A stretch of 64,000 bases of DNA from Methanosphaerula palustris E1-9c (GTDB taxonomy: Archaea; Halobacteriota; Methanomicrobia; Methanomicrobiales; Methanospirillaceae). Each line of letters opens with the position of its first letter. Position 1 is the first letter of the stretch. The stretch lies in NCBI RefSeq assembly GCF_000021965.1, contig NC_011832.1, positions 1,860,001-1,924,000 of the forward strand. Direction: 5' to 3'. Below, piece by piece: positions 17,979-47,400 of the stretch. The position numbers and the translations under genes are program-made. The notes below the pieces were generated by a model. The model made no database searches. It saw only the letters and a program-made list of their open reading frames with translations, and had not been told where the DNA came from.

Positions 17979-18093
17979 AATTCGTTCACCTGTTGAGGAA
18001 GACGGCACACGACCATCCATGACGATTCCAGCCGGCCTGAATCAGCGCTGAGAGAAAGGCAGGCCCAAAGAGGCACCACCTGGTGATCAGAAG

Positions 18094-25973: not shown

Positions 25974-26224
25974 AACATTTATATCAACCCACTCCAACAC
26001 TAGTTTAGGTAGATTTCGTTTGGTGAAATCTCCACTTTCTCTGCCAGTGATCGATGTGTGGCCCATACTGGATATGTACAGACCCCACTGGACCCGTCCA
26101 CTCCCTGGCAGGGAATCATTCGGATAAAAAATAACTGCAATCGGTGATACTGTGACCACGCCTGTTCTCTGGATAGACCCTTCATGCGTCACTGATTGTA
26201 CACCCCCCACTGGTGATGGAAACC
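25974..26224 (+). promoter_or_regulatory. Promoter and long conserved 5' leader with hairpin
   Basis: A TATA-like element (tttatatca, 25978-25986) lies about 240 nt before the start at 26225. The leader is conserved with that of 56689-59052: a hairpin at 26011-26031 (AGATTTC, 7-nt loop, GAAATCT), the identical 15-mer ggatatgtacagacc at 26070-26084, and a ggcag-gaatcattc segment near 26115-26129. Untranslated conservation of this length suggests a regulatory RNA leader. Confidence 0.5.
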
Positions 26225-29860: not shown

Positions 29861-31909
29861 TCAGTCTTTCTCCTGCAGATCATCCAGCAGACCGTCCTTC
29901 AGATTCCTCCTCTGCCTGAGGTACAGAAGCCCGATCACGAGCAGGAGGAGAAGCAGGATCATGATGATCAACCCTGCAAAGACGAGCAGAGCGAACAGGA
30001 GTGCTGCCCCAATCAGCAGAAGCAGACTCAGGTCCGACGATGAGAGCCGATCGATGGTCGACTGGATCATCGAGAGGAAATTCTGTGACGAACTCTGATC
30101 GCGGGAAGAGGCGGCACCCGACGAACCGGAGATAGAGACCGGCGAGTACTCGTTCTGGTTTCCGGTATCGATCAGAGGGAGCGTCGGTGTCGTCATCACC
30201 GGGGTGCTGGTATTCACCAGCGTCGGGGTGGGCGTGGTATCGGCTGACTGTGTCTGGGTCGGCGTGGCGGTCGTGGGAGCCGGCGTCGCCGTCGTCCCGA
30301 CCGTCCCACCGACTCCAGTGTAATCGTCGCTCGAAGAACCGGAGGAGGAGTCGCCGGTCGAGACTGGCCCTCCGGCGGAATTACTGCTGGTACTACCCGT
30401 CGACGGTGAAGAAGACTGGGTAGCGATCGTCTGGGTACTCCCTGAGGAAACAGTCGCCTGCACGGTGGTGGCGCTGGATGCGACCGTCTGTGTACTCTGC
30501 GAGGTCACGGTTGCCTGCACAGGCGGAACAGTTGCTCCGACCATCCATGCACCTGATGTGGAAGACGCGACCTGAGAACCACTGGTCGCAGCCTGGGTCG
30601 GAACGGCGGTCTGGACATGTGAGGGGAAGAGCGTGCTCAGGACAGGAACTGAAACCGACGGTTCGGGACTCTGAGTTGTGGTGACCGAGGGAGCGACGGT
30701 CAGCGATGGTTGGGCGGTGGTCTGGGAGACGGTGACCGCGGCGGTCGTGCCGGTGGTCACCGGAGCACTGGTCGTGATGACGGTGCCGGCTGTCTGCGTG
30801 GACGTCACCGTTGCAGTCCCGGCCACCGTCACCGTCGCAGATGTCGTCGGCGTGGTCTTGATGGTCGTCGTGGAGGTCGGAACGGTGGTGAGGGTCGCCG
30901 ACGTGGTCGGCTCGGTCGTCAGGGTGGTGACCGGGACCATCGTCGTCGATGTCGGCTCGGTCGTATTGACGATGACGGTCGGCGTGGCATTCACCGTCGT
31001 CTCGACAGAGGTTGGGGTCTCTGTCGGTGAGACTGATACCGTCGTATTCGGGGTCGTAGTCGTGGTGGTCGGTTCTGTTGTGGTCGGTACCGTTGTCAGG
31101 GTGGGCTCGATCCCTTTCACTGTGACACCGCTGCTCCCCGCTTCAGAGAGCCGGTTGGTCCAGGAGATCCCCTCTCCCTGGTTGGAGTTCAGGCACCAGG
31201 CATAGGTGTTGAACGCAGCGAACGAGTTCAGATTCGAAAACGAGTATTCGACCCTGATCGCTCCGTTGTCCGTAAGGGGAGGAGCGCTGGTGTTCACACT
31301 TCCCTGGCCGAGGATGCCTGCATGCAGATCGATGAACATCAGGTGGAACTGCTGCGTGGAGTCACTCATATCCTGGCCGTCATAGATCGGGTAGTTCTCC
31401 GGCCCGGCTGGCCTCCAGTTCTGAGGACCGTAGGCGAAATCGGATTTGGTGAAGGTGCTGTCGACGGACCCATCCTGGTAGGTGATCTCCTCCGGCTTCT
31501 GGTTAATCACCGTGGACGGCGTCCAGGTGTAGCCGCTCGCCCGGATATGGACGCTGAAATCGTCGGGGACATCCCCCTTCACCGCGAGCATGAGGATCCC
31601 GTCGTCGTCAAACCCTCTCCCTCCGGTATCGGTCAGAAAGAAGGAACCCGACTGGGAGTCAGACGCGATCGAGTTCCCACCATAATTCGAGGAGTCGCTG
31701 GAGATATGAAGCGCATTCAGACCGCCTCCATCGAACTTGAGATATCGCTCTCCGCCATTCGCCATGGCGAGATTGATATGATAGTGATCGGGGAGTACGC
31801 TCTCTGCTCCGACTGGAACAGTAATGGTGAGTGCGAGCAGTATCAGGGCGAAACTGATCAGCACTGACAGCGATGCACGGTAGTTCAGGTTACGTAAATG
31901 TTTTGTCAT
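29861..31909 (-). CDS. Thr/Ser-rich DUF3344 protein with C-terminal membrane anchor, copy 1
   Basis: 682 residues. Signal peptide (1-36, SVLISFALILLALTITVPVG); DUF3344 (about 45-270: GGGLNALHISSD, DTGGRGFDDDGILMLAV, YGPQNWRP, YPIYDGQDMSD); a long linker of Thr, Pro, Val, Ser and Gln (about 275-600) likely to be glycosylated; a GSSGAASSRDQSSSQ stretch and a short amphipathic helix; then a hydrophobic region of about 45 residues (LSLLLLIGAALLFALLVFAG) ending in basic LRQRR. This gives an extracellular head on a stalk fixed in the membrane. It is the tandem duplicate of the next gene; a third copy is at 59294. Confidence 0.88.
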   Translation of the reverse strand: MTKHLRNLNYRASLSVLISFALILLALTITVPVGAESVLPDHYHINLAMANGGERYLKFDGGGLNALHISSDSSNYGGNSIASDSQSGSFFLTDTGGRGFDDDGILMLAVKGDVPDDFSVHIRASGYTWTPSTVINQKPEEITYQDGSVDSTFTKSDFAYGPQNWRPAGPENYPIYDGQDMSDSTQQFHLMFIDLHAGILGQGSVNTSAPPLTDNGAIRVEYSFSNLNSFAAFNTYAWCLNSNQGEGISWTNRLSEAGSSGVTVKGIEPTLTTVPTTTEPTTTTTTPNTTVSVSPTETPTSVETTVNATPTVIVNTTEPTSTTMVPVTTLTTEPTTSATLTTVPTSTTTIKTTPTTSATVTVAGTATVTSTQTAGTVITTSAPVTTGTTAAVTVSQTTAQPSLTVAPSVTTTQSPEPSVSVPVLSTLFPSHVQTAVPTQAATSGSQVASSTSGAWMVGATVPPVQATVTSQSTQTVASSATTVQATVSSGSTQTIATQSSSPSTGSTSSNSAGGPVSTGDSSSGSSSDDYTGVGGTVGTTATPAPTTATPTQTQSADTTPTPTLVNTSTPVMTTPTLPLIDTGNQNEYSPVSISGSSGAASSRDQSSSQNFLSMIQSTIDRLSSSDLSLLLLIGAALLFALLVFAGLIIMILLLLLLVIGLLYLRQRRNLKDGLLDDLQEKD

Positions 31910-32020: not shown

Positions 32021-33982
32021 TCAATTCTCATGCTGTTCCTCCCTCCTCTGCCGGAGATACAGGATCCCGACCAGAAGCAGCAGCAGGAGCAGGACCATGA
32101 TGATCAACCCTGCAAAGACGAGCAGGAAGAAGAACAGGACCGCTCCGATCAGCAGAAGCAGACTCAAGTCCGACGATGATAGCCGATCGATGGTCGACTG
32201 GATCGTCGAGAGGAAACTCTGAGATGAACTCCGATCGCGGGACGAGGCGGCACCCGACGAACCGGAGATAGAGACCGGCGAGTACTCGTTCTGGTTCCCG
32301 GTATCGATAAGGGGGAGCGTCGGCGTCGTCATCACCGGGGTGCTGGAATTCGCCTGAGTCGGGGTGGGCGTTGTATCGGCTGACTGCGTCTGGGTCGGCG
32401 TGGCGGTCGTGGGGGCCGGCGTCGCCGTCGTCCCAACCGTCCCTCCGACTCCGGTGTAGTCGTCGCTCGATGAACCGGAGGAGGAGTCTCCGGTCGAAAC
32501 CGGCCCTTCTGCGGAATTGCTACCGGCCGGCTGTGAAGAGGATTGGGTAGCGATCGTCTGGGTACTCCCTGAGGAAACAGTCGCCTGCACAGTGGTGGCG
32601 CCGGACGCGACCGTCTGTGCATTCTGCGGGGTCGCGGTTGCCTGTACAGTGACATCTGATACGACCGTCCCTGTACCGACTGTTGGAGACTGCGTCTGAG
32701 GAGCACTGGTCACTGCAGCCTGGGTCGGAACGGCGGTCTGGGCATGTGAAGGGAAGAGTGTGCTCAGAACAGGAACTGAAACCGACGGTTCGGGACTCTG
32801 GGTCTCCGTGGCCGATGGAACGGTGGTCAGCGATGCCGGGACTGTCGTCTGGGAGACGATGACTCCGGGGGTCGTGCCGGTTGGCAGGGAGGTCGGAGTC
32901 ACCAGAACGCCAGCAGTAGTGGCGGTGCTGACCGGCTGCGTGGACGTCACTGTCGTACCGGTCGCTGCAGTCGGCGTGGTCGGAGCGGAGGTGGGAGATA
33001 CCGTGGTGGAGGGGACCGCCGTCGTTGTCGGTGTGGTTTCATTGATGGTGACGGTTGATGTAACATTCACGGTCGTCTCGACAGACGTTGGGGTCTCTGT
33101 CGGCGTGACCGATACCGTCTCGTTCGGGGTTGCAACCGTCGTTGTCGGTTCTGTTGTCGTCGGTTCTGTCGTGGGGGTGGGTTCAGTCCCCTTCACCGTG
33201 AAACCGCTGCTGCCCGCTGCAGAGAGACGATTGGTCCATGTGACCCCTTCCCCCTGGTTGGAGTTCAGACACCAGGCATAGGCGTCGAACGCGGCGAAGG
33301 TATTCAAATTCTCGAACGAGTACTCGACCCTGATCGCACCATTATCCTGAAGAGTCGAAGGATCGATGCCTGATTTCTGGCCCAGAATCCCTGCATTCAG
33401 ATCGATAAAAACCAGATGGAACTGCTGCGAAGCATCCCCCATATCCTGGCCATCATAGATCGGATAGTTCGACGCAGGGCTCGGCTTCCAGTTCTGAGGT
33501 CCGTAGGCAAAATCTCCCTTTGAGAAGGTACTGTCGACAGATCCATCCTCATGAGCATAGATACTGGGTTTTTGATTAACCACAGAGGACGGCGTCCAGG
33601 TGTAGCCGCTCGCCCGGATATGGACCTTGAAGTCGTCAGGGACGTCACCCTTTACGGCGAGCATCAGGATCCCGTCGTCATCAAACCCTCTCCCCCCGGT
33701 ATCGGTCATAAAGAAGGAGCCCGACTGGGAGTCAGACGCGATCGAATTTCCAAAATAATTCGAGGAGTCGCCGGAGATGTGAAGCGCATTCATCCCGGGA
33801 TCGTCAAGCTTGAAGTATCGCTCTCCACCATTCACCGTGGCGATATTGATATGATAGTGATCGGAAAGTACACTCTCTGCTCCAACAGGAACAGTAATGG
33901 TGATTGCGAGCAGGATCAGGACGATACTGGTCAGTACTGACAGCGATGCACGATAGTTCGGATCAGTCATCTGGTTTGTCAT
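32021..33982 (-). CDS. Thr/Ser-rich DUF3344 protein with C-terminal membrane anchor, copy 2
   Basis: 653 residues with the same architecture as its downstream neighbour: signal peptide (1-37), DUF3344 (about 46-270, with GMNALHISGDS in place of GGGLNALHISS), Thr/Ser/Pro stalk (about 275-570), and a C-terminal hydrophobic region ending in YLRQRREEQHEN. The stalks differ most, with unequal repeat numbers, while the signal peptide, the DUF3344 domain and the last 100 residues are nearly the same. It lies 41 bp from the intact ecfT, so this copy keeps the original position and 29861 is probably the derived one. Confidence 0.88.
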   Translation of the reverse strand: MTNQMTDPNYRASLSVLTSIVLILLAITITVPVGAESVLSDHYHINIATVNGGERYFKLDDPGMNALHISGDSSNYFGNSIASDSQSGSFFMTDTGGRGFDDDGILMLAVKGDVPDDFKVHIRASGYTWTPSSVVNQKPSIYAHEDGSVDSTFSKGDFAYGPQNWKPSPASNYPIYDGQDMGDASQQFHLVFIDLNAGILGQKSGIDPSTLQDNGAIRVEYSFENLNTFAAFDAYAWCLNSNQGEGVTWTNRLSAAGSSGFTVKGTEPTPTTEPTTTEPTTTVATPNETVSVTPTETPTSVETTVNVTSTVTINETTPTTTAVPSTTVSPTSAPTTPTAATGTTVTSTQPVSTATTAGVLVTPTSLPTGTTPGVIVSQTTVPASLTTVPSATETQSPEPSVSVPVLSTLFPSHAQTAVPTQAAVTSAPQTQSPTVGTGTVVSDVTVQATATPQNAQTVASGATTVQATVSSGSTQTIATQSSSQPAGSNSAEGPVSTGDSSSGSSSDDYTGVGGTVGTTATPAPTTATPTQTQSADTTPTPTQANSSTPVMTTPTLPLIDTGNQNEYSPVSISGSSGAASSRDRSSSQSFLSTIQSTIDRLSSSDLSLLLLIGAVLFFFLLVFAGLIIMVLLLLLLLVGILYLRQRREEQHEN

Positions 33983-34023: not shown

Positions 34024-34863
34024 CTATCCGGGAACGAGCCGGGGATAGACGACGGTCAACCCCACCAGCCCGGCCAGCAGGGCGCCCATGATCAGGTCCC
34101 GCTGCCCGGGATGGGGGGGGTGGTAACAGGTCGTTCTCGTTCCCGATCCAAATCCCCTGGCCTGCAGGGCATCGGCCACCAGCCGGGCCCGGTTCAGCAC
34201 CGCGATGATCATCGGGATCACCAGAGCCATCAGCATCTCTGCTTTCCGGACCCAGGACCCCTGCTCGAAGTCGAGCCCCCGCGAGCGCTGGGCATCCATG
34301 ATATGCCCGAGATCGGCGCTCAGAGCCGTGGTGGAGCGGAGCGCATACCCGAGAGAGAAGGTGAAGGTGTCCGGGACACCCAGGGCCTTCAGAGCGTGGA
34401 TGACCGACGTGCAGGAGGTCGTCATGATGAAGAGGACGCCGAACCCGGCGATCGTGAGCAGCCGGACACCCATCGCCGCGGCGAAGAGGAACCCCCCGGT
34501 ACTCAGGGTAGGATGGAGCATGCCCAGGTCCACTGAGTAAAAGACCGTGCCCGTCGACTCCTTCGGAAAGAGCATGTCGATGAAGACGATGAAGAGGAGC
34601 AGGGGGGAGAACGTCCAGAAGGCCCGACCCAGGGGCTGGAGCAGACCGGAGATCCCGGCCAGCATCAGGACGAAGAGCAGGGCTGCCAGCAGGGGGAGGA
34701 GGGAGTCCTGGATCAGCGAGACTCCACTGATCACGACCAGCGCCCCCATCTTGGTCCGGGGGTCCAGGCGGTGAAGAAACGAGGTCCCGGGGGTGAACCT
34801 CGCCCAGGCCGCATTCCCCTCCAGCCGCCGACCTGAGGAACGGCGATTATGCACCAATCCCAT
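34024..34863 (-). CDS. ecfT: ECF transporter transmembrane T component (EcfT)
   Basis: 279 residues with about six membrane segments and the two coupling-helix motifs of EcfT/CbiQ proteins, DAQRSRGLDF and ADALQARGF (the A-x-x-R-G pattern that docks on the ATPases). EcfT links ATP hydrolysis in the A subunits to toppling of the substrate-binding S subunit. Its start overlaps the fused ATPase gene by 17 bp, so it is the last gene of the operon. Two scars of its 3' end occur elsewhere, at 31935 and 61339. Confidence 0.88.
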   Translation of the reverse strand: MGLVHNRRSSGRRLEGNAAWARFTPGTSFLHRLDPRTKMGALVVISGVSLIQDSLLPLLAALLFVLMLAGISGLLQPLGRAFWTFSPLLLFIVFIDMLFPKESTGTVFYSVDLGMLHPTLSTGGFLFAAAMGVRLLTIAGFGVLFIMTTSCTSVIHALKALGVPDTFTFSLGYALRSTTALSADLGHIMDAQRSRGLDFEQGSWVRKAEMLMALVIPMIIAVLNRARLVADALQARGFGSGTRTTCYHPPHPGQRDLIMGALLAGLVGLTVVYPRLVPG

Positions 34864-36352
34864 CGGTCACCTCCTGGATGCGGCCGCCGGTGAGGGTGAC
34901 GACCCGGTCCGCACAGAGCCGGACGAATGCCTGGTCATGGGTGACCACGAGGACCGTCCTGCCGGCATCCCCCAGCAGGCGGAGGACCCGTGCCAGTTTC
35001 AGCTTCAGCGTCCAGTCGAGACCGAGGGTCGGCTCGTCCATCACCAGGATCGGGGACTCCATCATCAGCAGCCCGGCGATCGCGACCCGCTGCTTCTCCC
35101 CGACAGAGAGGGCCAGCGGCGGGGCCGTGAGCCTCAGGGAACCGAGATTCAGATCTGCAAGCACCTGCTTGATTCTCCGGTTGATCTCAGGGGCAGGAAC
35201 CCTGAAATTCTTCGGCCCAAAGGCCAGTTCATCGGCGATCGTCTCAGCAAAGAGCTGGTAATCGGCATGCTGGAAGAGCACACCCACCGTCTGTGAGATC
35301 TGGGCGACCGTTGAACCGGCGATCGATCTCCCATCCACCAGCACCTCCCCAAAATCCGGCTTTATCAGACCGTTGAGCAGGCGGAGCAGCGTCGACTTCC
35401 CGGAACCGTTGGCCCCGACGAGGACCGTGATCTCAGAGGGCCGGATCCGGAGGTCGACGGCGTTCAGGACAGGAGCGACCGAACCGGGGTACTGATAGGT
35501 CACCCCGGAGAGGCGAAGACCCGGGGAACGATCCCCCCCGAAGTCACTCCCTGACTCCCTTCGCATGTTCCGGCCCACAGGTCTGCACTCGTCTTCTGGA
35601 GGGAGGAGAATGTCGTCCCTCTCCAGAATCCCGGCCATCACCGCATCCGGGGAACCGTCATAGATGAGACGCCCCCTATTCAGGACGAGGTACCGCCCCT
35701 TCAGCGAGCCAAGCCGGTCCAGCCGGTGCTCGGTGATGAAGAGGGTCATCCCCCGCTTTTGAACGAGGGAACCGAGACACGCACTGAGAGCCTCGGCTCC
35801 CAGGCGATCGAGGCCGGAGAAGGGTTCGTCGAGGATGAGCAGATCGGGCCCGGTCACCACCACCGAGGCTACCGCGACCCGCTGCCGTTCTCCCCAGGAG
35901 AGCTGGTCCAGCGAGCGGCCCAGCAGGTGGGTGATACCGAGCAGGTCCGCGATGGACGCGATCGCCTGCTCCATCGCTTTCTCCTCCACCCCCCTCTGCT
36001 CCAGCCCGAAGGCCAGTTCGGTGTCGACCTCGCTGGAGAAGAACTGGGTGTCGGGATCCTGAAAGACCATGCCCACGGTGGAGGCCAGTTCATGGACCGG
36101 GCAGGTGCTGGTATCCTTTCCTGCCACCATGACCTGCCCCGTCATCGTACCGCGGGTGCTCTGCGGGATCAGACCGTTCAGGCATCGGAGAAGGGTCGAC
36201 TTCCCCGAACCGCTCGGTCCGGTGAGGATGACGATTTCACCCTGTTCGACCGAGAAGGAGATATGATCGAGGGCAGGCACACTCTCACCCCCGGAAGTAC
36301 GGGAATACTGAAAGGAGAGATCTGCGATCTCAAGGATGTCAGGTCCGCTCAT
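34847..36352 (-). CDS. ecfA: ECF transporter energy-coupling ATPase, fused A-A' domains
   Basis: 501 residues containing two complete ABC ATPase domains in one chain, instead of separate EcfA1 and EcfA2. Domain 1 (about 5-235): Walker A GPSGSGKST at 45-53, signature LSWGERQR, Walker B LLILDEPFSG. Domain 2 (about 275-498): Walker A GANGSGKST, signature LSVGEKQR, Walker B ILVMDEPTLG, switch VTHDQAF. It overlaps the S gene by 14 bp and ecfT by 17 bp. Fused EcfA proteins are known in archaea and actinobacteria. Confidence 0.92.
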   Translation of the reverse strand: MSGPDILEIADLSFQYSRTSGGESVPALDHISFSVEQGEIVILTGPSGSGKSTLLRCLNGLIPQSTRGTMTGQVMVAGKDTSTCPVHELASTVGMVFQDPDTQFFSSEVDTELAFGLEQRGVEEKAMEQAIASIADLLGITHLLGRSLDQLSWGERQRVAVASVVVTGPDLLILDEPFSGLDRLGAEALSACLGSLVQKRGMTLFITEHRLDRLGSLKGRYLVLNRGRLIYDGSPDAVMAGILERDDILLPPEDECRPVGRNMRRESGSDFGGDRSPGLRLSGVTYQYPGSVAPVLNAVDLRIRPSEITVLVGANGSGKSTLLRLLNGLIKPDFGEVLVDGRSIAGSTVAQISQTVGVLFQHADYQLFAETIADELAFGPKNFRVPAPEINRRIKQVLADLNLGSLRLTAPPLALSVGEKQRVAIAGLLMMESPILVMDEPTLGLDWTLKLKLARVLRLLGDAGRTVLVVTHDQAFVRLCADRVVTLTGGRIQEVTDGIGA

Positions 36353-36887
36353 CTGCCTCGATCACCCCAGCCTTGAGAAGGCGCCTGAGGACCAGCGATG
36401 CAAGGATGCCGCCGATTCCTCCGAAGATCAGGTGGGTCACCGAAGCGACACCGATCCCGATCAGAATGAGATTGGTCTGGACTCCAAAGAAGAACTGGAC
36501 CCCGTAGTTCACCACCATCTTGGCCATATTTCCGAATACTCCACCGATGAACCCGACCAGGGGGTTGGTGAACTGGTACCCGAAGATGAGGGCGGTGAGA
36601 TCGATCGCTCCACCGAGGGCCAGGTACTTGAAGAGGTCGAAGAGATGAAGCGGATCGTTCCCGAAGAATGAGGCCAGAACCCCGGATATCAGACCGATAT
36701 AGAGCCCTGCCCCCGGCTTTCTGACCACCCGTACCCCGATGATGACCGGGATGACCCAGTAGATACCGGAACTACCCGGAAGATGAAGGGGAATCTCGAA
36801 GAGCCGGTTCAGAACAAAGACCATCGCCCCGATGAGGGAGAGGAGGGCCGTCTCATAGAGGGAGAAGTAGCCCCTCAGTTCCACCAT
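36339..36887 (-). CDS. ECF transporter substrate-binding S component, substrate unknown
   Basis: 182 residues with about six hydrophobic segments (TALLSLIGAMVFVLNRLFEI, GIYWVIPVIIGVRVV, GLYIGLISGVLASFF, LALGGAIDLTALIFGY and others), the size of ECF S components. The RKPGAGL stretch recalls YkoE-type S proteins, but this is too weak to name thiamine as the substrate. The ATG directly abuts the stop of the upstream DUF3344-like gene, so these two proteins are made together. The substrate cannot be read from the sequence. Confidence 0.75.
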   Translation of the reverse strand: MVELRGYFSLYETALLSLIGAMVFVLNRLFEIPLHLPGSSGIYWVIPVIIGVRVVRKPGAGLYIGLISGVLASFFGNDPLHLFDLFKYLALGGAIDLTALIFGYQFTNPLVGFIGGVFGNMAKMVVNYGVQFFFGVQTNLILIGIGVASVTHLIFGGIGGILASLVLRRLLKAGVIEADERT

Positions 36888-37673
36888 TCAGAGCGCCTCC
36901 GAAGGGGCCGAGGTGATCGAAAGTTTGAACGAGTCAGGCTGAGGCCGGTCGACGGCGATCATCAGAAGCACGTGATCCACCTCGCTCCCTCCCGTCGTGG
37001 TGATAAAAAAACTCCCATTCTGTGCTGTCGTGTTCGTCATCTGCCCCTTCTTCGCAGCCGTATCGGTGGTGATATGAAGGGCATCGAGCCCGCCCCAGGG
37101 ATGATCGAAGGAGATGTTCACCGGCCCTGAGGTCGCTGCATCCCGGCCGGCAACGATCACAGAGAAGGGGCCGGTCTGAGCGAGGGGGGTGACCCCGGCT
37201 ACTGGCTCGCCTGGCTCAGCTTCCCCCTGGACCATATACCCGTTGGCACCATACCCGGTCTGCCGGTTCGTCCAGAACTTGCGTGGCGTGCCGCCCCACC
37301 CGTAGATAGCAAAGACCATCCTTCCCGAAAGGTTCTGGACCCTGTACGAGACCCTCACGGGATTGCTCTGATCCTGATACATGTTCTGTCCCTCGGGGGT
37401 GCCGTTCAGATCGATGAAACTGAGATACCAGCCTTCCTCTGTCTGGTTCTTCTCGTCCGGGTCGATGTTGAGTGGAGGCACATATGGACGCCAGGACTGC
37501 GGGCCGTACATGAGATCCGCCATTGATAGGGAGACACTCTGGTTGATGTTCGTTTCAGCGGTATCCTGATCGGTCTGGTCCACACCTCCTGCAGTCATCT
37601 GAAGAGCCACCATGAGGATGGTGAACGCTCCCATCAGAACCAGTGCGGCCAGAATCCGCCGTGCATACTTCAG
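36888..37673 (-). CDS. DUF3344-like protein with swapped halves, in the ECF operon
   Basis: About 248 residues from the first ATG (37634), or 261 if translation starts at the CTG at 37673. The CTG start gives a convincing signal sequence (KYARRILAALVLMGAFTIL), lies one base after the upstream TGA and follows agaggga; the ATG start would cut that sequence and has no ribosome binding site. The mature part holds both halves of a DUF3344 domain in reverse order. First comes the half that is normally C-terminal (LMYGPQSWRPY, LSFIDLNG, VRVSYRVQNLSG, AIYGWGG, FWTNRQ). After a linker near residue 150 (ATG numbering) comes the half that is normally N-terminal (GGLDALHITTDT, GSFFITTTGGSEVDHVLLMIAV, PDSFKL). 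Context suggests an extracytoplasmic accessory of the ECF transporter. Confidence 0.7.
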   Translation of the reverse strand: MKYARRILAALVLMGAFTILMVALQMTAGGVDQTDQDTAETNINQSVSLSMADLMYGPQSWRPYVPPLNIDPDEKNQTEEGWYLSFIDLNGTPEGQNMYQDQSNPVRVSYRVQNLSGRMVFAIYGWGGTPRKFWTNRQTGYGANGYMVQGEAEPGEPVAGVTPLAQTGPFSVIVAGRDAATSGPVNISFDHPWGGLDALHITTDTAAKKGQMTNTTAQNGSFFITTTGGSEVDHVLLMIAVDRPQPDSFKLSITSAPSEAL

Positions 37674-37674
37674 T

Positions 37675-38373
37675 TCAGTCCCTCTTGATCGGGAAGAGTT
37701 CGCCGTCGCGCTCCTCTACAAACAGGATCGCCCTTCCATTGACCGGACAGGCTTTGGGAGATTTCCCTTCCGGATTCTGCACGGTTCCGCTGGTGACTCT
37801 CGGCCCTGCGATATTCCAGACCTCATCGATGCCGCCCGCGAGCAGCTCCTCCACCGTGCTGGGACCGGTGAAATCCCGGATCTTGCCCAGTTGCAGAAAC
37901 CGCCCGTCATTCCGCGTCGAAGCGAGCGCGAGCCCTGCCATCGCCCCGATCACCCCGTCCTCAGTCCCGCCAAGCCCCAGGAGTGGGATATTCAGATTTC
38001 GGGCAAGGGTCCGCGCCCTGATCTGGTCCAGGATCGTATGCTGCGCATCGCGTCCATAGGCCACCAGGGAAGGGGCTATCTGTTCGGTGAGGGCGACCGC
38101 GACTCCAGGATCGCTCCCATCGATGAAATCGTCGAGCATCATATCCTGCGCCAGGGAGAAAACATATGCTGCAATCCGCGGATTCTCTTCGCAGATATGG
38201 ATGACTCCACAGGAATTATGAGAGGTGTAGGGAATATCCTCATGAACATAGAGTTGATGGCGAGTCACCCCGTAGACCAGGAATTCTTCTGCTATGGCAT
38301 CGGCAATCGTTCTGGCCAGTCGACCTGTTCCACGGGACTCCAGATTGTCTGTATCATCAAGTGCGAGATAAAT
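37675..38373 (-). CDS. TiaS-like DDTD-motif protein, short form
   Basis: About 232 residues. The family motif LALDDTDNLESRGTGRLAR lies upstream of the first ATG/GTG/TTG in frame (GTG at 38268), so the true start must be a rarer codon. An ATT at 38371-38373, seven bases after gaggagga, is the best candidate. The pattern matches the N-terminal catalytic part of TiaS, which attaches agmatine to C34 of tRNA-Ile2 (DDTD, then NSCGVIHI and GTEDGVIGAMAGLALA). The OB-fold and zinc ribbon of full-length TiaS (about 400 aa) are missing, so a different role is likely. It is the first gene of the ECF operon. Confidence 0.65.
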   Translation of the reverse strand: MYLALDDTDNLESRGTGRLARTIADAIAEEFLVYGVTRHQLYVHEDIPYTSHNSCGVIHICEENPRIAAYVFSLAQDMMLDDFIDGSDPGVAVALTEQIAPSLVAYGRDAQHTILDQIRARTLARNLNIPLLGLGGTEDGVIGAMAGLALASTRNDGRFLQLGKIRDFTGPSTVEELLAGGIDEVWNIAGPRVTSGTVQNPEGKSPKACPVNGRAILFVEERDGELFPIKRD

Positions 38374-38410
38374 CGTCTTCTCCTCCTCGGATATATTACT
38401 ATTAAATAGA

Positions 38411-38424
38411 CATAATTTAAATTT
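38411..38424 (-). promoter_or_regulatory. TATA box of the TiaS-like/ECF operon
   Basis: The AT-only stretch ataatttaaatttt reads aaatttaaatta on the transcribed strand. It lies about 45 bp upstream of the proposed ATT start, which leaves a short leader with a strong ribosome binding site. Next to it, at 38441-38446, is gttaac, a hexamer that also occurs in the promoters of the surface-protein genes. Confidence 0.45.
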
Positions 38425-38460
38425 TTTGATTTTTTATTAAAGTTAACTTAATTGTATAAA

Positions 38461-39987
38461 CTACTTCCCAGACTTCGGGCCGGCATCCCTGATGATCCCC
38501 CTGACCGCTGCCAGGATCCCGGCAAACTCCTCCGCATCGGGGCTCCATTTCGCAAACTCCACCAGGCTGCACCGCTGGAGAATCATCTGAACCTTCAGAA
38601 GATCGGCACCCTGCCCGACAGGGAGAGCGAGCACCTCCTGATCGGTGGACGAGGTTCCATCGCCGTAATGATACGAGAGGAAGAGACGGAGCGCCTCTCC
38701 TGCCGAGCCATAACCTCGCTGAGGAGCACCCTGTGCATAGTAAGCAGCAGCCATCACCAGAAGATCCTCAGCTGCCTTCCGGTAGTCGAAGGGCGACTGG
38801 ACCTCCAGAGCCAGAGCCGAATCCCTCCTCCTCCGCCACCGTCGGTACAGGATGACCCCGCCGGCGAAACAGAGCACCGCGAGCAGGGTGAGGACTACCG
38901 GATGCAGCAGCGCGAGGAGCATCGGAATCAGATTGGAGGGGACGGCCGGAGGCCGGTGAAGGGTGAGCCCCGAAATCGTGGTATTGTTGATCACCGTCGC
39001 TGCCGCGGTGGCCTTGTTCTCCTTGCGGTCCGCCCAGGTCAGGGCCACCACCGCCGTTCTGTTGGTGGTGGTGTTGATATCGGTCTGCACCCCCGAGTAG
39101 CCGTCGCCGTGGAGATTGTCGGCGAATGCCCGGTAGGTGGCATTCTTCTCCAGCAGCGGCGGAAGGGAGAGCAAGGCTGAGGACTTCTGGTCGGCGAAGA
39201 GGAGGGTGGCATTGTCCATCCCCCCGTTCAGGGTCGCCTCCTCCCCGGACTTCTTTGCGAAGTGGTAGAGGAATTGCCCGGTGGTGTTCGAGACCGGCGT
39301 CACCTGCCGATCATCGACCGTGAACCCCTGCACCTGGAGGGAGGCGAGGATATCGCGGATCGTGGAATCGTTCTCGATCACCTGTTCGAGGGCCGTCTGC
39401 CGCAGGGCGGTCAGGTTCTCCTCCTGTCTGAACTGGTTCTGCAGTGCCCCGGCATCGCTCGGGATCTGTCCGCTCTGCAGGGCCTGATCGATACTCTCCC
39501 CCTGCCCCTGCTGATCCGCCGGCACCGTTGTCCGGGGTGCCGGCAGATCCGTGCTGACCAGGGGATCCTTCACATTCTTCTGCCCGGGATCGTTCGCCGT
39601 CACATGGACGACGAGCGGAGAGAGGGCGACCTCGCGGTCGACCCCTGCTTCGGTATAGGCAAACCTGAGCGAGACCGTCAGCGTCATCGGCTGATCATAG
39701 GGCCCCAGGTGCAGGTTCAGACTGTGCGCACCGTCAGGGATCTTGAATGAGGCGGACTGGACCGCAGATTCCGGACCTGCGCCTTCATCACCGACCGACG
39801 TTCGTTCGAGCGTCCCCTTGACCTCATGGCCATAGGTATTGGTCAGGACCAGGGGGATGGTGGCCTGGGCCCCCTGCTGGATATAATACTCCTTCTGATC
39901 CGAGGTGATGGTGATCTCCTGGGCCGCTGCAGAACTGAACAGGACGAGAGAGAGCAGCAGCACGAGGCAGAGTGCTCGACGCATCAT
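38461..39987 (-). CDS. BatD-like membrane protein of the MoxR/VWA operon
   Basis: 508 residues: signal peptide (1-22), a beta-rich extracytoplasmic region (about 23-345: ITSDQKEYYIQQGAQATI, Ig-like), one transmembrane helix (about 347-375, LIPMLLALLHPVVLTLLAVL) followed by basic YRRWRRRRD, and a helical cytoplasmic domain (385-508). Topology and gene order match BatD/DUF4129-like proteins of MoxR-VWA operons. Its start overlaps the VWA gene stop (ATGA). The exact biochemical role of these proteins is not established. Confidence 0.72.
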   Translation of the reverse strand: MMRRALCLVLLLSLVLFSSAAAQEITITSDQKEYYIQQGAQATIPLVLTNTYGHEVKGTLERTSVGDEGAGPESAVQSASFKIPDGAHSLNLHLGPYDQPMTLTVSLRFAYTEAGVDREVALSPLVVHVTANDPGQKNVKDPLVSTDLPAPRTTVPADQQGQGESIDQALQSGQIPSDAGALQNQFRQEENLTALRQTALEQVIENDSTIRDILASLQVQGFTVDDRQVTPVSNTTGQFLYHFAKKSGEEATLNGGMDNATLLFADQKSSALLSLPPLLEKNATYRAFADNLHGDGYSGVQTDINTTTNRTAVVALTWADRKENKATAAATVINNTTISGLTLHRPPAVPSNLIPMLLALLHPVVLTLLAVLCFAGGVILYRRWRRRRDSALALEVQSPFDYRKAAEDLLVMAAAYYAQGAPQRGYGSAGEALRLFLSYHYGDGTSSTDQEVLALPVGQGADLLKVQMILQRCSLVEFAKWSPDAEEFAGILAAVRGIIRDAGPKSGK

Positions 39988-40934
39988 GGAATGATCCGCC
40001 TCTTGCCGTAGCGAAGGTAGAGCTCAGCGAGGAGGACCAGGAGTACCCCGGCAAACAGAATCGGCTGAATGCTGGTCTCCTCCTTCTCCCGGACGATCTC
40101 CTTGTTCAGCCCGGCATAGATCTGGTGCAGGGTCTGCTCGTCCACCGAGGTGTAATAGGTCCCGCCGGTCTTCTCTGCGATCGACTGCAGGGCCGCTTCA
40201 TCGAGGGTCGCGTACTGGGGCGTGCCCGTCGGGTCGGTTCCGAGCAGGACCGGACTCTTCGAGCCCAGCCCGACCGTAAAGACCTGGACCTTGTTCTGAG
40301 CGGCGAAGGCCGTGGCATCCTCAGGGGAGATCACGCCGGCGTTGCCCACCCCGTCGGAGAGGAGGACGACCACCTTCTTCTGGTTCGGGATCGAGTCGGC
40401 CATGTCGACGGCCAGGGCCAGCCCGTCACCGAGCGCCGTCTGTCCGTTCTTCTGCTCGATCGCCGCCGTCTTCTCCATCACCCGGTCCTTGTCCGGGGAG
40501 AGATACGCCGCCGTCGTCGCTCCGGACTCGAAGATCACGACACCGGCATAGTCCTTCGGGTCGAGGGATTTGATCAGCACCGAGGCCGATTCCTTCGCCG
40601 CCTCAAGGCGGGTCGGCTGGTAATCGTTCGCTGCCATACTCCCGGAGTCGTCAATGGCGAGGACGACGCTGACCCCGTCCCGGGTCTGGTCCAGGGGAAG
40701 GTGCGGATTCGCCAGCCCGACGATCACGAGCGCGATCGCCACCAGCGAGAGGATGAACAGGTACTGGGGACGCCGGGACGGCTTCTTCTCGCCGAGGGCA
40801 GACTTCAGAAAGGCGACATGCGAGAAGGCCATCGCGGTGTTCTTCCTGCTTCTGACCGCACGACGGTACAGATAGCAGAGAATCGGTATTCCGATCAGAC
40901 CCACGAGCCAGAGGGGATTGGTAAAGCCGGGCAT
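39984..40934 (-). CDS. BatA/BatB-like VWA-domain membrane protein
   Basis: 316 residues: TM1 (5-23, LWLVGLIGIPILCYLY), TM2 (about 58-76), a von Willebrand A domain (about 86-265) with an intact MIDAS site (DDSGS at 95-99 plus the later conserved Thr and Asp), and TM3 near the C-terminus (291-308) with a basic end. VWA domains bind metal and ligands. In MoxR operons they act with the AAA ATPase in assembly or stress tolerance. It lies 2 bp after the DUF58 gene. Confidence 0.88.
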   Translation of the reverse strand: MPGFTNPLWLVGLIGIPILCYLYRRAVRSRKNTAMAFSHVAFLKSALGEKKPSRRPQYLFILSLVAIALVIVGLANPHLPLDQTRDGVSVVLAIDDSGSMAANDYQPTRLEAAKESASVLIKSLDPKDYAGVVIFESGATTAAYLSPDKDRVMEKTAAIEQKNGQTALGDGLALAVDMADSIPNQKKVVVLLSDGVGNAGVISPEDATAFAAQNKVQVFTVGLGSKSPVLLGTDPTGTPQYATLDEAALQSIAEKTGGTYYTSVDEQTLHQIYAGLNKEIVREKEETSIQPILFAGVLLVLLAELYLRYGKRRIIP

Positions 40935-40936
40935 GA

Positions 40937-41827
40937 CTATCTCCCCCCGGCGGTACCGGCCCGCCGGCCGCAGAAGAGGCGTTTGAGCGGGATGTCGTAG
41001 GGTTCATCGGTCCCGAGGTCGACCTGGCCGACCCGGCACCGCCGGCACATCTCAGTGAAGGTACCGGTCGCGGCCTCGGTCGCCAGCCGGTATCGCTCCC
41101 GGATCGCCGGGTCCGAGGTGTCGACGAGCAGCTGTTCGCCGCTCTCCTCGTCCTCGAACATCATCAGCCCGCAGTCGGGGAGGTCGTGCTCCCGGGGATC
41201 GGTGACCCGGATCGCCGAGACCTCGTGGTGCAGGCGGAGGAGCGAGAGGGCACGGGCCGGGTCCTCAGTGAAGAAGTCCGAGATGACGATCACCGAGGAC
41301 TGGCGCTTGAGAAGGGGAGTGAACTCCCGGAGGACCTTGCCGAGATCGGTCCTCCCCGGATGCGGGGTGAAGGCGATCAGGGTGTTCAGCAGGGCGATCA
41401 GGTGCCTTCGTCCCCGCCGGGCCGGAATATACTGTTCGATCCGATCGGTGAAGATGCAGAGACCGATCAGTTCGTGCTGTTTCTGGGCCGCGAACATCAG
41501 CGAGGCCGTCACTTCAAGGATGCGCTGGGCTTTGCTGACGTCGCTGCCGAACGAGCCGGAGGCCGACCCGTCGATCAGGAAATAGTACCGCTGATCCCGC
41601 TCTTCTGAGAAATCCTTGATATACGGCTTGTTCAGCCGGGCGGTCACCTTCCAGTCGATCGTCCGGACGTCGTCGCCGGGGACGTACTCCCGGATCTCGG
41701 AGAACTCGATCCCCTGTCCTTTGAAGAGGGACCGGTGTTCGCCGGCTGCGAGACCCTCCACCAGGATACCGGTCTTCAGTTCGATGGTATGCAGGCTGCG
41801 GAGCAGTGTCTTGAGGTCTGTCATCAT
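40937..41827 (-). CDS. DUF58 protein
   Basis: 296 residues with the DUF58 hallmark YVPGDDVRTIDWKVTARL (about 48-65), followed by a degenerate VWA-like fold with D-x-S-x-S (DGSAS). DUF58 genes almost always sit between moxR and VWA genes, as here, and their products are believed to work with MoxR. There is no membrane segment. It follows moxR by 15 bp. Confidence 0.88.
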   Translation of the reverse strand: MMTDLKTLLRSLHTIELKTGILVEGLAAGEHRSLFKGQGIEFSEIREYVPGDDVRTIDWKVTARLNKPYIKDFSEERDQRYYFLIDGSASGSFGSDVSKAQRILEVTASLMFAAQKQHELIGLCIFTDRIEQYIPARRGRRHLIALLNTLIAFTPHPGRTDLGKVLREFTPLLKRQSSVIVISDFFTEDPARALSLLRLHHEVSAIRVTDPREHDLPDCGLMMFEDEESGEQLLVDTSDPAIRERYRLATEAATGTFTEMCRRCRVGQVDLGTDEPYDIPLKRLFCGRRAGTAGGR

Positions 41828-41842: not shown

Positions 41843-42832
41843 TCACGGGACACGGATGGTGTCGAGGATCGTATCGATCATCCGATCGGTCGAGATCTCC
41901 TCTGCTTCGGCCGTATAGGTCCTGATGATCCGGTGACGAAGGACGCTGTGGGCCACGACCTTGATGTCGTGGGGGATCACGTACCCCCGTCCGTTCAGCA
42001 GGGCATGAGCCTTCGCAGTCAGGACGAGGTTGATGGAGGCACGCGGCGAGGCCCCGCAGGCGATGTATTCTCCGATCGACAAGCCATAGGTCTTAGGGTT
42101 GCGGGTGGCGTCGACCAGTTCGGCGACGTACCGCTTGATATCAGGGCTCGCATAGATCGTACGCGTGAAGGCCTGCATCGCGCGGAGTTGCTGCTCGTTC
42201 AAGAGAGGCGACGGGCGAACCGGGACCGTCTCCGAGAACCGGTCTAGGATCCGGATCTCCTCCTCCAGGCTCGGATAGGTCATGAGCACCTTCAGCATGA
42301 ACCGGTCGAGCTGGGCTTCGGGAAGCGAGTAGGTCCCTTCGGATTCGATCGGGTTCTGGGTGGCCAGCACGAAGAACGGCTCTTCGAGCGGGAAGGTGTC
42401 TCCCTGGATGGTCACCTGCCGCTCCTGCATCGCTTCGAGCAGGGCCGACTGGACCTTCGGCGGGGCACGGTTGATCTCATCGGCGAGGACGAACTGGTGG
42501 AAGATCGGCCCCTTGGTGGTGCTGAAGACCGCCTCGTTCTGGTTGTAGATCTTGGTGCCGATGATATCGGCGGGGAGGAGGTCCGGGGTGAACTGGAGGC
42601 GGACGAACCCGCAGTCCAGGCATTCGGAGAGGGTCTTGATCAGCAGGGTCTTGGCGATGCCGGGCACCCCTTCGAGCAGGACGTGGCCGCCAGCGAGGAG
42701 GGCGATCATCAACTGATCGATCACCGCCTCCTGGCCGACTATTATGGTGCTGATCTCCTGCCGGAGCTCTGTGAGCGGTTGTTGGTATGTCAGTGCGGTG
42801 GTGTTCTTTACGGCAATATCCGGGGCTATCAT
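41843..42832 (-). CDS. moxR: MoxR-family AAA+ ATPase
   Basis: 329 residues: Walker A GVPGIAKT (55-62), Walker B VLADEINRAPP, sensor 1 LATQNPIE and the MoxR lid domain (SLPEAQLDRFMLKVLMTYPS onward). MoxR ATPases act as chaperones for metal insertion or assembly of surface or respiratory proteins. It is the first gene of a four-gene operon with DUF58, VWA and BatD-like genes. A fragment of a second copy survives at 61475-61697. Confidence 0.92.
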   Translation of the reverse strand: MIAPDIAVKNTTALTYQQPLTELRQEISTIIVGQEAVIDQLMIALLAGGHVLLEGVPGIAKTLLIKTLSECLDCGFVRLQFTPDLLPADIIGTKIYNQNEAVFSTTKGPIFHQFVLADEINRAPPKVQSALLEAMQERQVTIQGDTFPLEEPFFVLATQNPIESEGTYSLPEAQLDRFMLKVLMTYPSLEEEIRILDRFSETVPVRPSPLLNEQQLRAMQAFTRTIYASPDIKRYVAELVDATRNPKTYGLSIGEYIACGASPRASINLVLTAKAHALLNGRGYVIPHDIKVVAHSVLRHRIIRTYTAEAEEISTDRMIDTILDTIRVP

Positions 42833-42910: not shown

Positions 42911-43960
42911 TCATGGGGACCCACTCAGTCCAAGCGAATGGAAGAGCGTTGAGATCCAGCCGGTGATCGTCTCCATCAGACCGGAAGGATGCTGTGCTGC
43001 CGGCGATGACGTCGGTGCTGCGCCCGAATTGTTACCATTGCGAGGATGAGCCGGCGTGGATCGGCTGGCAGGATCCAGAGTGGTCGTGTTCGAGGGGGTG
43101 AAGTCGGAGAGGGACTCTGAACCGTAGACCACATACCCGCTACTCCCGGTTTCAGAGACCTGGTTGGTCCACGAGATCCCCTGGCCCTGGTTGGACATAT
43201 TGTTGTAGGCATAGGTGTTGAAGGCGGTCTTGGTCTTCAGGTTGTCAAAGGAGTACTCCACCTTTGCAGCCCCGCTATCCTTGATGCCACTGAGATTGCT
43301 GTTGGAACCCAGGGCACCGACCTTCGTATCGACGAAGAGAAGCGAATAGGTGTTGGCCGGGTCCTTCATATCCTCACCTTCGATCAGGGGATAATTCGCA
43401 AGCCCGGCCGGTTTCCAGGCCTGGGGCGCATAGGTGAAATCAGATGCTGTGAAGGTTTCGTTCAGGGCCCCGTCCACATAGGTGAGGTCGTTCTTATCCG
43501 GCGGCTGGTTCAGGACAGGAACCGGGTCCCACTGGTACCCGCTCGAGTTGATATGGACCTTGAAATCATCGGGAACCTTTCCCTGAACCGCGAGCATCAG
43601 GATGAGATCGTCATCAAAACCCCGTCCCCCGGTATCCGAGAGGAAAAAACTCCCCGAGGTACTGGTGGAATTGGTCACCTGCCCAAACGGCTCAGCAGGA
43701 TTAGTCGTGATATGCAGGGCATTCAACCCGCCACCATCAAACTTGATGTAATAGGTGTTGTTATGGAAGAGATCAAATCTGGCGCCATCACTGTTGGCGA
43801 CCTGGATATTGATATGGTTCTTCGCGGGAATCTGTTCCTTAACGGTATCTGCGGCCAGCACCGGCAGGACACAGACCAGGAGCAGCGCCAAAAGCATCAC
43901 GCAGCTGAGTACGGCATATCTCCTCCGGGTTGTATGATTGTGCATCGTTCTTTCATCCAT
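42911..43960 (-). CDS. Secreted DUF3344 protein with hydrophobic C-terminal helix
   Basis: About 349 residues from the ATG at 43960; the frame extends to 44005 but the extra residues precede a normal signal peptide (VLSCVMLLALLLVCVLPVLA). DUF3344 spans about 40-280 (GGGLNALHITTNP, FFLSDTGGRGFDDDLILMLAV, YAPQAWKP, YPLIEGEDMKD, QGQGISWTN). After a Thr/Pro/Asn linker, the last 25 residues form a short hydrophobic-amphipathic helix (ETITGWISTLFHSLGLSG) that may attach to the membrane or a partner. The paralogue at 61765-62814 is close throughout. Confidence 0.87.
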   Translation of the reverse strand: MDERTMHNHTTRRRYAVLSCVMLLALLLVCVLPVLAADTVKEQIPAKNHINIQVANSDGARFDLFHNNTYYIKFDGGGLNALHITTNPAEPFGQVTNSTSTSGSFFLSDTGGRGFDDDLILMLAVQGKVPDDFKVHINSSGYQWDPVPVLNQPPDKNDLTYVDGALNETFTASDFTYAPQAWKPAGLANYPLIEGEDMKDPANTYSLLFVDTKVGALGSNSNLSGIKDSGAAKVEYSFDNLKTKTAFNTYAYNNMSNQGQGISWTNQVSETGSSGYVVYGSESLSDFTPSNTTTLDPASRSTPAHPRNGNNSGAAPTSSPAAQHPSGLMETITGWISTLFHSLGLSGSP

Positions 43961-44005
43961 GTCTGGTACGTCTCCGATCTCTTGTTGAGAGACTGTGGAT
44001 AACAT

Positions 44006-44404: not shown

Positions 44405-47400
44405 TCAGGCGAAGTTGATCCAGTTGATGTTGGCGTAGTTCCCCGGGAACTTCAGCACGAGCCGGTGCTGCCCGGCCGGCAGGGTCACCAGGACCTGGAG
44501 GGTCTGGAAGGCCGCATCGTTGCCGGTGTTCGGGACGTTCACCACGGCGAGAGGTGTCGCGCCGTCGTCGAGATACATCTGGACGGACGAGCCGGCATGG
44601 GCCGAGGCGACCCGGAACCCGGCGGTGTAGGTGCCGGCCGTGTTGATGTTCACGGTATAGGCGAGCCATTCGCCAGCACGGGTCCAGCCGACGCTCGGAC
44701 TTCTGTCGGTGTCGATCTGTTCGATGTCGACGTCGTCATGCCGGTAGACCCCGCCCTCGTTGCCGGCGGTGGTGTCGTGGTAGGCGATCCCTTCACCGCC
44801 GAGGTCGTAGTCCTCGGCCTGCAACTGGCCGGGGATCGTGTGAGTCCCGTTGTAGACCGGAGCGGTGCCGGTCACGGTCGGCGAGATGGTTGTTGTTGGA
44901 ATTGTCGTTGGGGTTGCCACTGCCGGCACGGTCACATTGATGGTCCTGGTGGTGGACCCGGCCGCGTTGGTTGCAGTCTGGTTGATCGTGTAGTTACCGG
45001 GCTGCCAGTAGGTGTAGGTGAAGTTCGGATAGGCGGTGGTCGTCCCGTCGCCGAGGTTATAATGGACCGAGGTCGCATTCACCGCGGTGTTAGTGACCTG
45101 GATGCCCATCGAGCCGATGCCGCCGGGGAAGGTGACGGTGAAGTTGGCCACCGGCAGGTTCGGGTTTACGGGTGTCTGGGTGACTGTTGGTGTGACCGGT
45201 ACGGTCGCCGTTGGAGTTGGCGTCACGGTCGTGGTCGTCGGCGAACCGGCCGGCACCGTCACTGTGACGGTCTTTGTGGAAGACCCGGCGTCGTTGGTTG
45301 CGATCAGTTTGATCGTGTAGGTGCCGGGCTGCCAGTAGGTGTACTTGAAGTTCTTATAGGCGGTGATGGTACCGTCGCCGAGGTCGTACTTCACGGTGGT
45401 GGCATTCGTCGTGGCGTCGGTGACCTGGATGCCCATCGAGCCTGCGCCGGCCTGGTAGGTGACCACGAAGTTCGCGATCGGCAGGTCATGCCCCGACGAG
45501 GTCGGCAGCGGGGTCACGGTCGTCGTTGCGGTCGTCAACGTCACAGTTGGGGTGACGGTTGTTGTAGTGGTTGGCGCCGTTGTCGTTGTCGTCACGGTCG
45601 GCGAGACCGTCGGTGTTCCCGGACCGGTGACGGTGATGTACTGTGGAATTGTCTTCACCTCTGCCCCGGTCGAACCGATGGCGACGAGGGAGACGGTGTA
45701 GGTGCCGGCTGCCGAGTAGGTGTGGACTGGGTTCTTATCGAACGAAGCCCCACCGTCACCGAACTGCCAGAAGTACTGTCGGATCGTGCCGGTCGACAGG
45801 TCAGTGAACTGCACCGACAGCGGGGACTGGCCAGTCGTCACGTTCGCCGTGAAGTTGGCCGTCACCGGCTGCATGGTCGGGGTTGGGGTCACGGTCGTCG
45901 GGATTGTCGTCGGGATTTTAGTTGGTACTGTCGTTGCGATGGTGGTTGCTATCGTCGTTGGAATGGTCGTCGGTAGGGTTGTTGCGATGGTTGTTGCTAT
46001 CGTCGTTGGAATGGTTGTCGGTACGGTTGTTGTCGGTGCCGTCGTTGGTTCTGTTGTCGGCGGCACCACAGCGTGGACGGTGATGTAGTTCGTCCTCACC
46101 GTGGTGTTGGACCCGCCGGCATTCGTCGCTGTCAGGTTCACCGTGTAGTTCCCGGCTGCCGCGTAGTTGTGAACCGGGTTCTGCATCGTCGAGGTGTTGC
46201 CGTCACCGAAGTTCCACGACCAGGTCACCGGAGCTCCGGTCGACAGGTCAGTGAACCCGACCGAGAGCGGGACGGTACCGTTCGTGATGTTCGCGTTGAA
46301 GTTCGCGACCGGAGCCGACGGGCTCTCGGACGCGGTGACGGTGATGTAGTTCGTTTTCGTGATGGTGTTCGACCCGCCAGCGTTCGTCGCCGTCAGGTTC
46401 ACAGTGTAGTTTCCAGCCACGGTATAGGTGTGGCTCGGGTTCTGTACCGTCGAGGTGTTCCCGTCACCGAAGTTCCACGACCATGAGGTCGGGGTGCCAG
46501 TCGACTGGTCAGTGAAGCCGACCGAGAGTGGGGCAGTGCCGTTCGTCACACTCGCGTTGAAGTTCGCGACCGGAGCCGGGGTCACCGGCGTGGTGACTGT
46601 GATGTAGTTCGTCTTCGTGGTGGTGTTGGACCCGCCGGCGTTCGTCGCCGTCAGGTTCACCGAGTAGTTTCCGGCCGCCACATAGGTGTGGGACGGGGAC
46701 TGTGTCGTCGAGGTGGTGCCGTCACCGAAGTCCCACGACCACGAGGTCGGGGTACCGGTTGACAGGTCGGTGAACTGGACCGAAAGCGGAGCGGTGCCGT
46801 TCGTCACGTTCGCGCTGAAGCCAGCGACCGGGGCCGGCAACGGGGCCGTCACCGAGTAGCCGCTCGGGGTCCGATCTGACATGAGCGAGTTCGACCAGGC
46901 GACCATGTCGCTGCCGTTGTTCGAGGTCTGGCAGTAGCCGTAGACGTTGAAGGCCGCGAGCGAGGTGAGGTTCTCGAACGAGTAGTGGATCCGGACGGCT
47001 CCCTGGTTGGTGAGCGCCGCGTTCGGTCTGAGCACGCCGGCGTTCAGGTCGACGAACATCAGTTTGAAGGTGTTGGTCGTGTCGGCGGTGTCCTGTCCGT
47101 AGTAGATCGGATAGGAGTAACCGTTGCCGGTCGGTTTCCAGACCTGCGGCCCGTAGATGAGGTCGGCCTTCGTGAAGGTCTCGTCAAGGGTGGTACCGTT
47201 GTAGGTGGAGGAGGTCGGGGGCTGGTTGCTGATGGGGTTCGGCGTCCAGGTGTAGCCGTCGGCCGTGACATGCAGTTTGAAGTCGTCAGGGACCGTGCCG
47301 TTCACAGCGACGAGGAGGAGGATCTCGTCCTCGTAGCCCTTGCCGCCCGAGTCGGTGGCGTAGAAGGTTCCGGACTGTGCCGCCGTCTGGGTCACCTGGC

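Follow-up and report, generated by a model that had tools for sequence, protein, structure and literature searches.

In group I ECF metal importers, an accessory protein is anchored in the membrane and has a portion outside the cytoplasm (PMC2667541, PMC7689651). The operon described here resembles three such systems, CbiMNQO, NikMNQO and NikKMLQO, in combining S, T and A modules with a membrane-anchored accessory protein. It differs from them in that its accessory protein is an unrelated, permuted beta domain common to giant surface proteins, and in that its S component is YkoE-like with a ligand predicted to be molybdenum or tungsten (Mo/W). The S component of YkoEDC, the Bacillus HMP/thiamine ECF importer (PDB 5edl), belongs to the same Pfam family, PF09819, but the account of it in PMC5037267 describes no extracytoplasmic partner of this kind, and two of its ligand contacts, E77 and Q95, are missing from the S component studied here. 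With the importers TupABC, WtpABC and ModABC, the system has gene clusters and an MMP11-like gene in common, and the ligand class is likely the same, whereas those importers rely on PBP-fold binding proteins where this one has a permuted beta domain together with an ECF S component. Below, PERM denotes the permuted protein, MMP11L the MMP11-like gene, MoSto the molybdenum storage protein, and "standard" the non-permuted order of the domain. The window is the whole stretch of Methanosphaerula palustris E1-9c DNA that was analysed (64,000 nucleotides).

Organization of the PERM-ECF operon

Five genes on the minus strand, separated by gaps of 0-1 base or overlapping slightly, make up the operon. 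It begins with MMP11L (37675..38373), whose product carries a TiaS TCKD-like (ATP-dependent kinase) domain, followed by PERM (36888..37673), which encodes 261 aa from a TTG codon: an N-terminal membrane helix, then the second half and then the first half of a surface domain. The S-component gene (36339..36887) matches PF09819, the YkoE family, with 36.8 bits, above the cut-off; it is followed by EcfA (34847..36352), a single chain with two fused ABC ATPase domains, and by EcfT (34024..34863; PF02361). S, T and paired ATPase domains are thus all found in one operon, as expected of an ECF importer. The stop codon of PERM (36888-36890) touches the S-component ATG (36887) exactly, as the initial annotation had described, and alignment with relatives likewise favours the TTG start at 37673 that it had chosen, which supplies the N-terminal membrane helix. 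Secretion and topology are inferred throughout. Read from its sequence only, an A+T-rich gap 5' of the operon (38374..38460, minus strand) is a probable promoter.

Upstream, also on the minus strand, lies a companion operon encoding a MoxR AAA+ ATPase (41843..42832), a DUF58 protein (40937..41827), a BatA/vWA protein (39984..40934) and a 508-aa membrane protein (38461..39987). This MoxR-DUF58-BatA operon is conserved and usually adjoins the PERM-ECF operon.

The MMP11-like protein is similar to the TiaS kinase domain (E 5e-4 to 8e-4) and scores 34 bits against TIGR03280 (MMP11), for which the family cut-off is 255.8; by these scores it is a relative of MMP11 and TiaS, not a member. A true MMP11 is encoded elsewhere in the M. 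palustris genome, and a literature search for MMP11 by that name found no paper. Where relatives of MMP11L start (38373-38379, minus strand), the gene has no ATG, GTG or TTG, and the ATG of relatives aligns with AAG. ATT or ACG, sitting 5-8 bases past a GGAGG site, is the likely start; starting at 38268, the first canonical in-frame codon, would cut off the DDTD motif.

A surface-domain family distinct from DUF3344

Besides PERM, the window contains 18 standard copies of the domain. The largest carriers are giant surface proteins of the minus strand, one of 3295 aa (44405..54292) with 14 PKD domains, CBM6, SBBP repeats and three standard domains, and one of 2554 aa (4637..12301) with 12 PKD domains, CBM6 and two standard domains; a further PKD/CBM6 surface protein (12780..18020, minus strand) has one. 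Two secreted proteins (29861..31909 and 32021..33982, minus strand) combine the standard domain with a long T/S-rich stalk and a C-terminal membrane anchor, and the former has a close paralogue at 59294..61306 (minus strand). Another pair of close paralogues occupies 42911..44005 and 61765..62814, and single standard-domain proteins are encoded at 18303..19133 and 54625..55485 (all minus strand). The plus strand contributes a protein with one standard domain (24787..25872) and two with two standard domains and PKD (26213..28762 and 56689..59052); weak C-terminal matches to dockerin type I in these three proteins hint at a cohesin-dockerin surface assembly.

The initial annotation had assigned PERM to DUF3344, a label that we reject. 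PF11824 matched nothing in the whole genome, though it did match in a control genome, and hhalign of the 63 standard domains against 19 genuine DUF3344 domains, drawn from proteins of the phylum, gave a probability of 0.1%. Archaeal surface proteins with DUF3344 are likewise encoded in tandem clusters and contain repeated domains, which raised the question of whether such clusters are counterparts of the present system; they lie close to other ABC ATPases but lack PERM, S and MMP11L, so this idea was also set aside. In the genuine DUF3344 clusters of several genomes (L150, L152, L157, L159) we observed a short ABC ATPase of ~220 aa, possibly a second pairing of surface proteins with a transporter.

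A Pfam and NCBIfam scan of the permuted and standard proteins returned no family matches, and on sequence evidence both forms belong to an unnamed family that has no model in either collection. A sequence search of the PDB found no relatives of the domain, and Foldseek with the permuted and standard models found no confident structural relative. The PERM model weakly matched the copper protein CorA (E 0.02, TM 0.31), which did not recur among the best 50 Foldseek matches of the standard model, the better of the two. The CorA/MopE surface copper proteins of methanotrophs are comparable as surface-displayed domains that capture a trace metal, a role that we propose for the PERM family, but the fold match is weak and the conserved residues differ.

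Circular permutation of PERM

A profile built from 63 standard domains matches PERM twice and in swapped order: profile positions ~125-236 align to residues 35-137 of the 248-aa reading (E 5e-17) and positions 23-95 to residues 169-242 (E 3e-21). The former is the second half of the domain (37224..37532, minus strand), including R49 and T122, and the latter the first half (36909..37130, minus strand), including H187, T189, T212 and T214. As encoded, the two pieces score 66.4 and 52.7 bits; rejoined in the standard order, they give one match of 117.6 bits over profile positions 23-236 (E 8e-37). The second half precedes the first in all 34 PERM homologues tested, so the swap is not attributable to chance or to an assembly fault. 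In most of these other homologues the match stays split after rejoining (median best score of 55.8 after and 55.4 before), because the old linker between the halves (profile ~96-120) has been lost. Within its own genome (one contig of 2,922,917 bases), tblastn of PERM gave 27 matches, all inside the window, in which the halves of the query align to the standard copies in swapped order.

Both orders are predicted to fold as one unit. AlphaFold modelled the standard form (43115-43828, from the protein at 42911..44005; pLDDT 96, pTM 0.93) and PERM (pLDDT 84, pTM 0.82) each as one compact domain, in agreement with the expectation that the halves pack as one fold. In a tree of 97 domains, one branch separates permuted from standard forms with support of 100/98. 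The permuted copy of G224, a genome of another family in which the five-gene operon is present, falls on the tree between the standard clade and the main group of permuted copies, and we found no standard domain in that genome. The permuted form could therefore be the older one, on a tree that has no outgroup.

We conclude that PERM is a circular permutant of the surface domain, that the permutation is real and ancient, and that PERM is an accessory of an ECF system, a joint conclusion in which we have very high confidence; in this respect the reading of swapped halves made at the outset was correct. A tandem duplication of the domain and a later truncation, leaving B1-A2 from A1-B1-A2-B2 (A and B being the first and second halves), are the probable origin of the permutation. 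This route is plausible because direct tandem standard copies do exist, three residues apart in one open reading frame (L102, 948-4181).

Linkage to ECF genes across genomes

The block of MMP11L, PERM, S and EcfA is intact in 20 of 20 genomes examined and in one genome of another family, as seen in 21 larger loci. EcfT follows directly in 19 of the 20; in the exception, G037, it lies ~20 kb further on with standard-domain genes in between, a layout that Methanogenium cariaci resembles. Across 199 genomes of the order, the S component tracks the domain family, with the family found in 40 and S in 36. The four genomes that have the family without S comprise three fragmented assemblies and G013, where a single standard protein but no PERM is encoded. 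When contigs were searched with a single sequence, no matches were obtained; with an alignment as the query, named carriers included Methanoculleus, Methanofollis, Methanoregulaceae, Methanogenium and Methanocorpusculum.

PERM adjoins S in every homologue examined, and the operon with S, EcfA and EcfT is conserved in every genome examined, which points to an accessory role of PERM in uptake. The idea that the protein is tied to uptake therefore stands, detached from the DUF3344 identity first given to it, and neither of the two results named at the outset as refuting it, halves that fail to pack together or homologues without ECF genes, was seen. Two observations concern copy number and loss. 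One genome (G153; L200, L088) has two complete PERM-ECF systems on the same contig, ~20 kb apart, and in another (G055:C125, 1156-1962) an MMP11-like gene with an internal stop lies with a PERM fragment, suggesting loss of the system.

Gene neighbourhoods and the candidate ligand

Many genomes have an MMP11L locus and lack PERM. Tungstate/molybdate genes were nearby in 12 of 20 such loci, compared with none of 35 background loci (0/20 random and 0/15 DUF3344; Fisher P = 3e-7). The neighbours are TupABC, WtpABC, ModABC, MOT1 and MoSto, the last identified by its match to PDB 2ogx (E 1e-60), often together with MoeA and Fwd. Against the same background, 11 of 60 windows near PERM contained Mo/W genes (P = 0.004). 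In G001 and G007, which represent two genera, the PERM-ECF block is flanked by FwdAB-MoeA-MoeA and WtpABC-MOT1-ModABC-MoSto, with TupABC at the end; G075 has the same Mo/W array, including MMP11L, without the PERM-ECF block. In 14 of 19 genomes, from 6 of 9 genera, WtpA and PERM are at most 35 kb apart, where 0.8 genomes would be expected, although this limit was set after the data were seen, the expectation assumes random placement, and related genomes are not independent. All seven of the PERM-linked WtpA proteins that were scanned scored above the curated cut-off. Most PERM genomes also encode TupA, so the PERM system is not a simple replacement; in G043 and G066, which have the ECF operon, TupA and WtpA matched only weakly. 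For M. palustris the linkage comes from relatives, as neither the window nor its 20-kb flanks contain a Mo/W gene.

From these comparative neighbourhoods, the ligand of the operon is probably molybdenum or tungsten in some form. The initial annotation had anticipated that the operon might disclose the ligand class of the whole family, and this is partly borne out, in that comparative genomics points to Mo/W and not to a vitamin. To our knowledge, no S component transports an oxyanion, and a literature search of titles and abstracts found no paper describing an ECF importer of molybdate or tungstate.

MMP11L also occurs at sites unrelated to Mo/W (L187, L189, L192-L196). At L187 and L189 it sits beside apparent purine, pyrimidine and arginine biosynthesis genes, a non-transport context. 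At L184 (7287-12050), a FecCD-type ABC importer and a binding protein flank the MMP11-like gene; this could be a MolBCA-like molybdate importer or one for another ligand. Other families have YkoE-type ECF operons in which the S component is fused to a C-terminal SUOX-like (PF00174) domain and followed by a fused EcfA and EcfT (L256, L257 and L259 in G206, G224 and G233); L257 encodes further SUOX-like lipoproteins, and a TupA or MoSto gene lies ~6 kb from the operon at L256 and L257, which is suggestive only. Such operons share with the PERM-ECF system a YkoE-type importer with extracytoplasmic accessory domains, two of them near TupA/MoSto, but their accessory domain is SUOX-like and partly fused to S.

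These fusions bear on an alternative that we consider unlikely, namely that the importer carries the organic part of the Mo/W pathway (molybdopterin, a pterin precursor or a metal-pterin complex) and not a bare oxyanion. Such a cargo would suit an S component of YkoE type (the known ligand of that family is a pyrimidine-containing compound), an MMP11-like protein of the kinase type, and relatives fused to a molybdopterin-binding type of domain close to TupA/MoSto. The SUOX match, however, was weak in one of the two proteins tested (E 0.022), and the genes around MMP11L encode mostly importers of oxyanions and storage proteins.

Alternative functions of the operon

Its family label would make the S component a transporter of thiamine, HMP or another vitamin, and group I YkoE does bind thiamine, through Y46, W49, E77, Q95 and D131 (PDB 5edl; PMC5037267). 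We mapped these residues through an archaeal YkoE aligned both to 5edl and to our set of S components, a procedure in which Y46 and D131 could not be placed with confidence. The counterpart of E77 is small or hydrophobic, that of Q95 is Leu, Met or Ile, and that of W49 is Trp in many rows and not in all, so by its contact residues S does not group with the thiamine transporters. A PDB sequence search found no relatives of S, and an Rfam scan of 18 kb of the operon region detected no TPP or other riboswitch. After the residue comparison we gave up thiamine import as the default reading, and with linkage to Mo/W genes instead, a vitamin ligand is improbable.

Somewhat more doubtful still is that the domain serves in adhesion or the cell wall, in which case PERM would be a sensory or structural partner and the ECF link would concern regulation and not ligand handling. 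The standard copies do reside on fibrillar PKD/CBM6/dockerin proteins, which fits such a role; the position of PERM beside S in every homologue examined does not, and G224 has the permuted form alone, with its ECF operon.

Residues kept in both forms of the domain lie in both halves, which fits a site between the halves that survived permutation. A basic residue (K138 in the standard form, R49 in PERM) is K or R in 100/100% of sequences, a His (H38, H187) is present in 60/63 standard and 33/33 permuted domains (97/100%), and four Ser/Thr positions and one Gln are also kept, whereas no Asp/Glu or Cys column reaches 80% in both forms. An anion is a better fit to such a set than a metal cation. 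Import of Ni, Co or Cu, with PERM acting like CbiN, NikN or NikK, is thus the least probable reading of all: the group I-like architecture and the weak CorA match speak for it, set against a single conserved His, the lack of acidic or Cys residues conserved in both forms, and the failure of CorA to recur with the standard model.

Proposed model and implications

We propose a group I-like ECF importer, probably for molybdenum or tungsten species, that consists of PERM, S, fused EcfAA' and EcfT and in which PERM, tethered to the membrane and circularly permuted, would serve as the receptor subunit. Among these species we lean, more tentatively, towards an oxyanion, whether bare or thio. Standard copies on the giant surface proteins, with up to three standard domains, PKD spacers and CBM6, would gather the ligand outside the cell or keep a buffer of it there. 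With its N-terminal helix fixing it in the membrane next to S, PERM would receive the ligand and present it to S, by analogy with CbiN, NikN and NikK beside CbiM and NikM. EcfA would then hydrolyse ATP and EcfT would move S, releasing the ligand, and the MMP11-like TiaS-kinase-type protein, the first product of the operon, may act inside the cell on the ligand or its cofactor. We infer ligand capture, ligand identity, handover and the role of the MMP11-like protein.

The system might, if we are right on the oxyanion as well, be the first ECF importer for molybdate or tungstate (or a thio form), in which the permuted antenna domain acts as receptor at the membrane and the standard copies make up an extracellular coat that scavenges Mo/W. 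An unnamed, much-copied archaeal surface domain is now tied to an importer, and it provides a clean example of a circular permutation that has persisted across an order of methanogens. Hydrogenotrophic methanogens need molybdenum or tungsten for formylmethanofuran dehydrogenase, and the operon predicts a new route by which they may obtain either metal.
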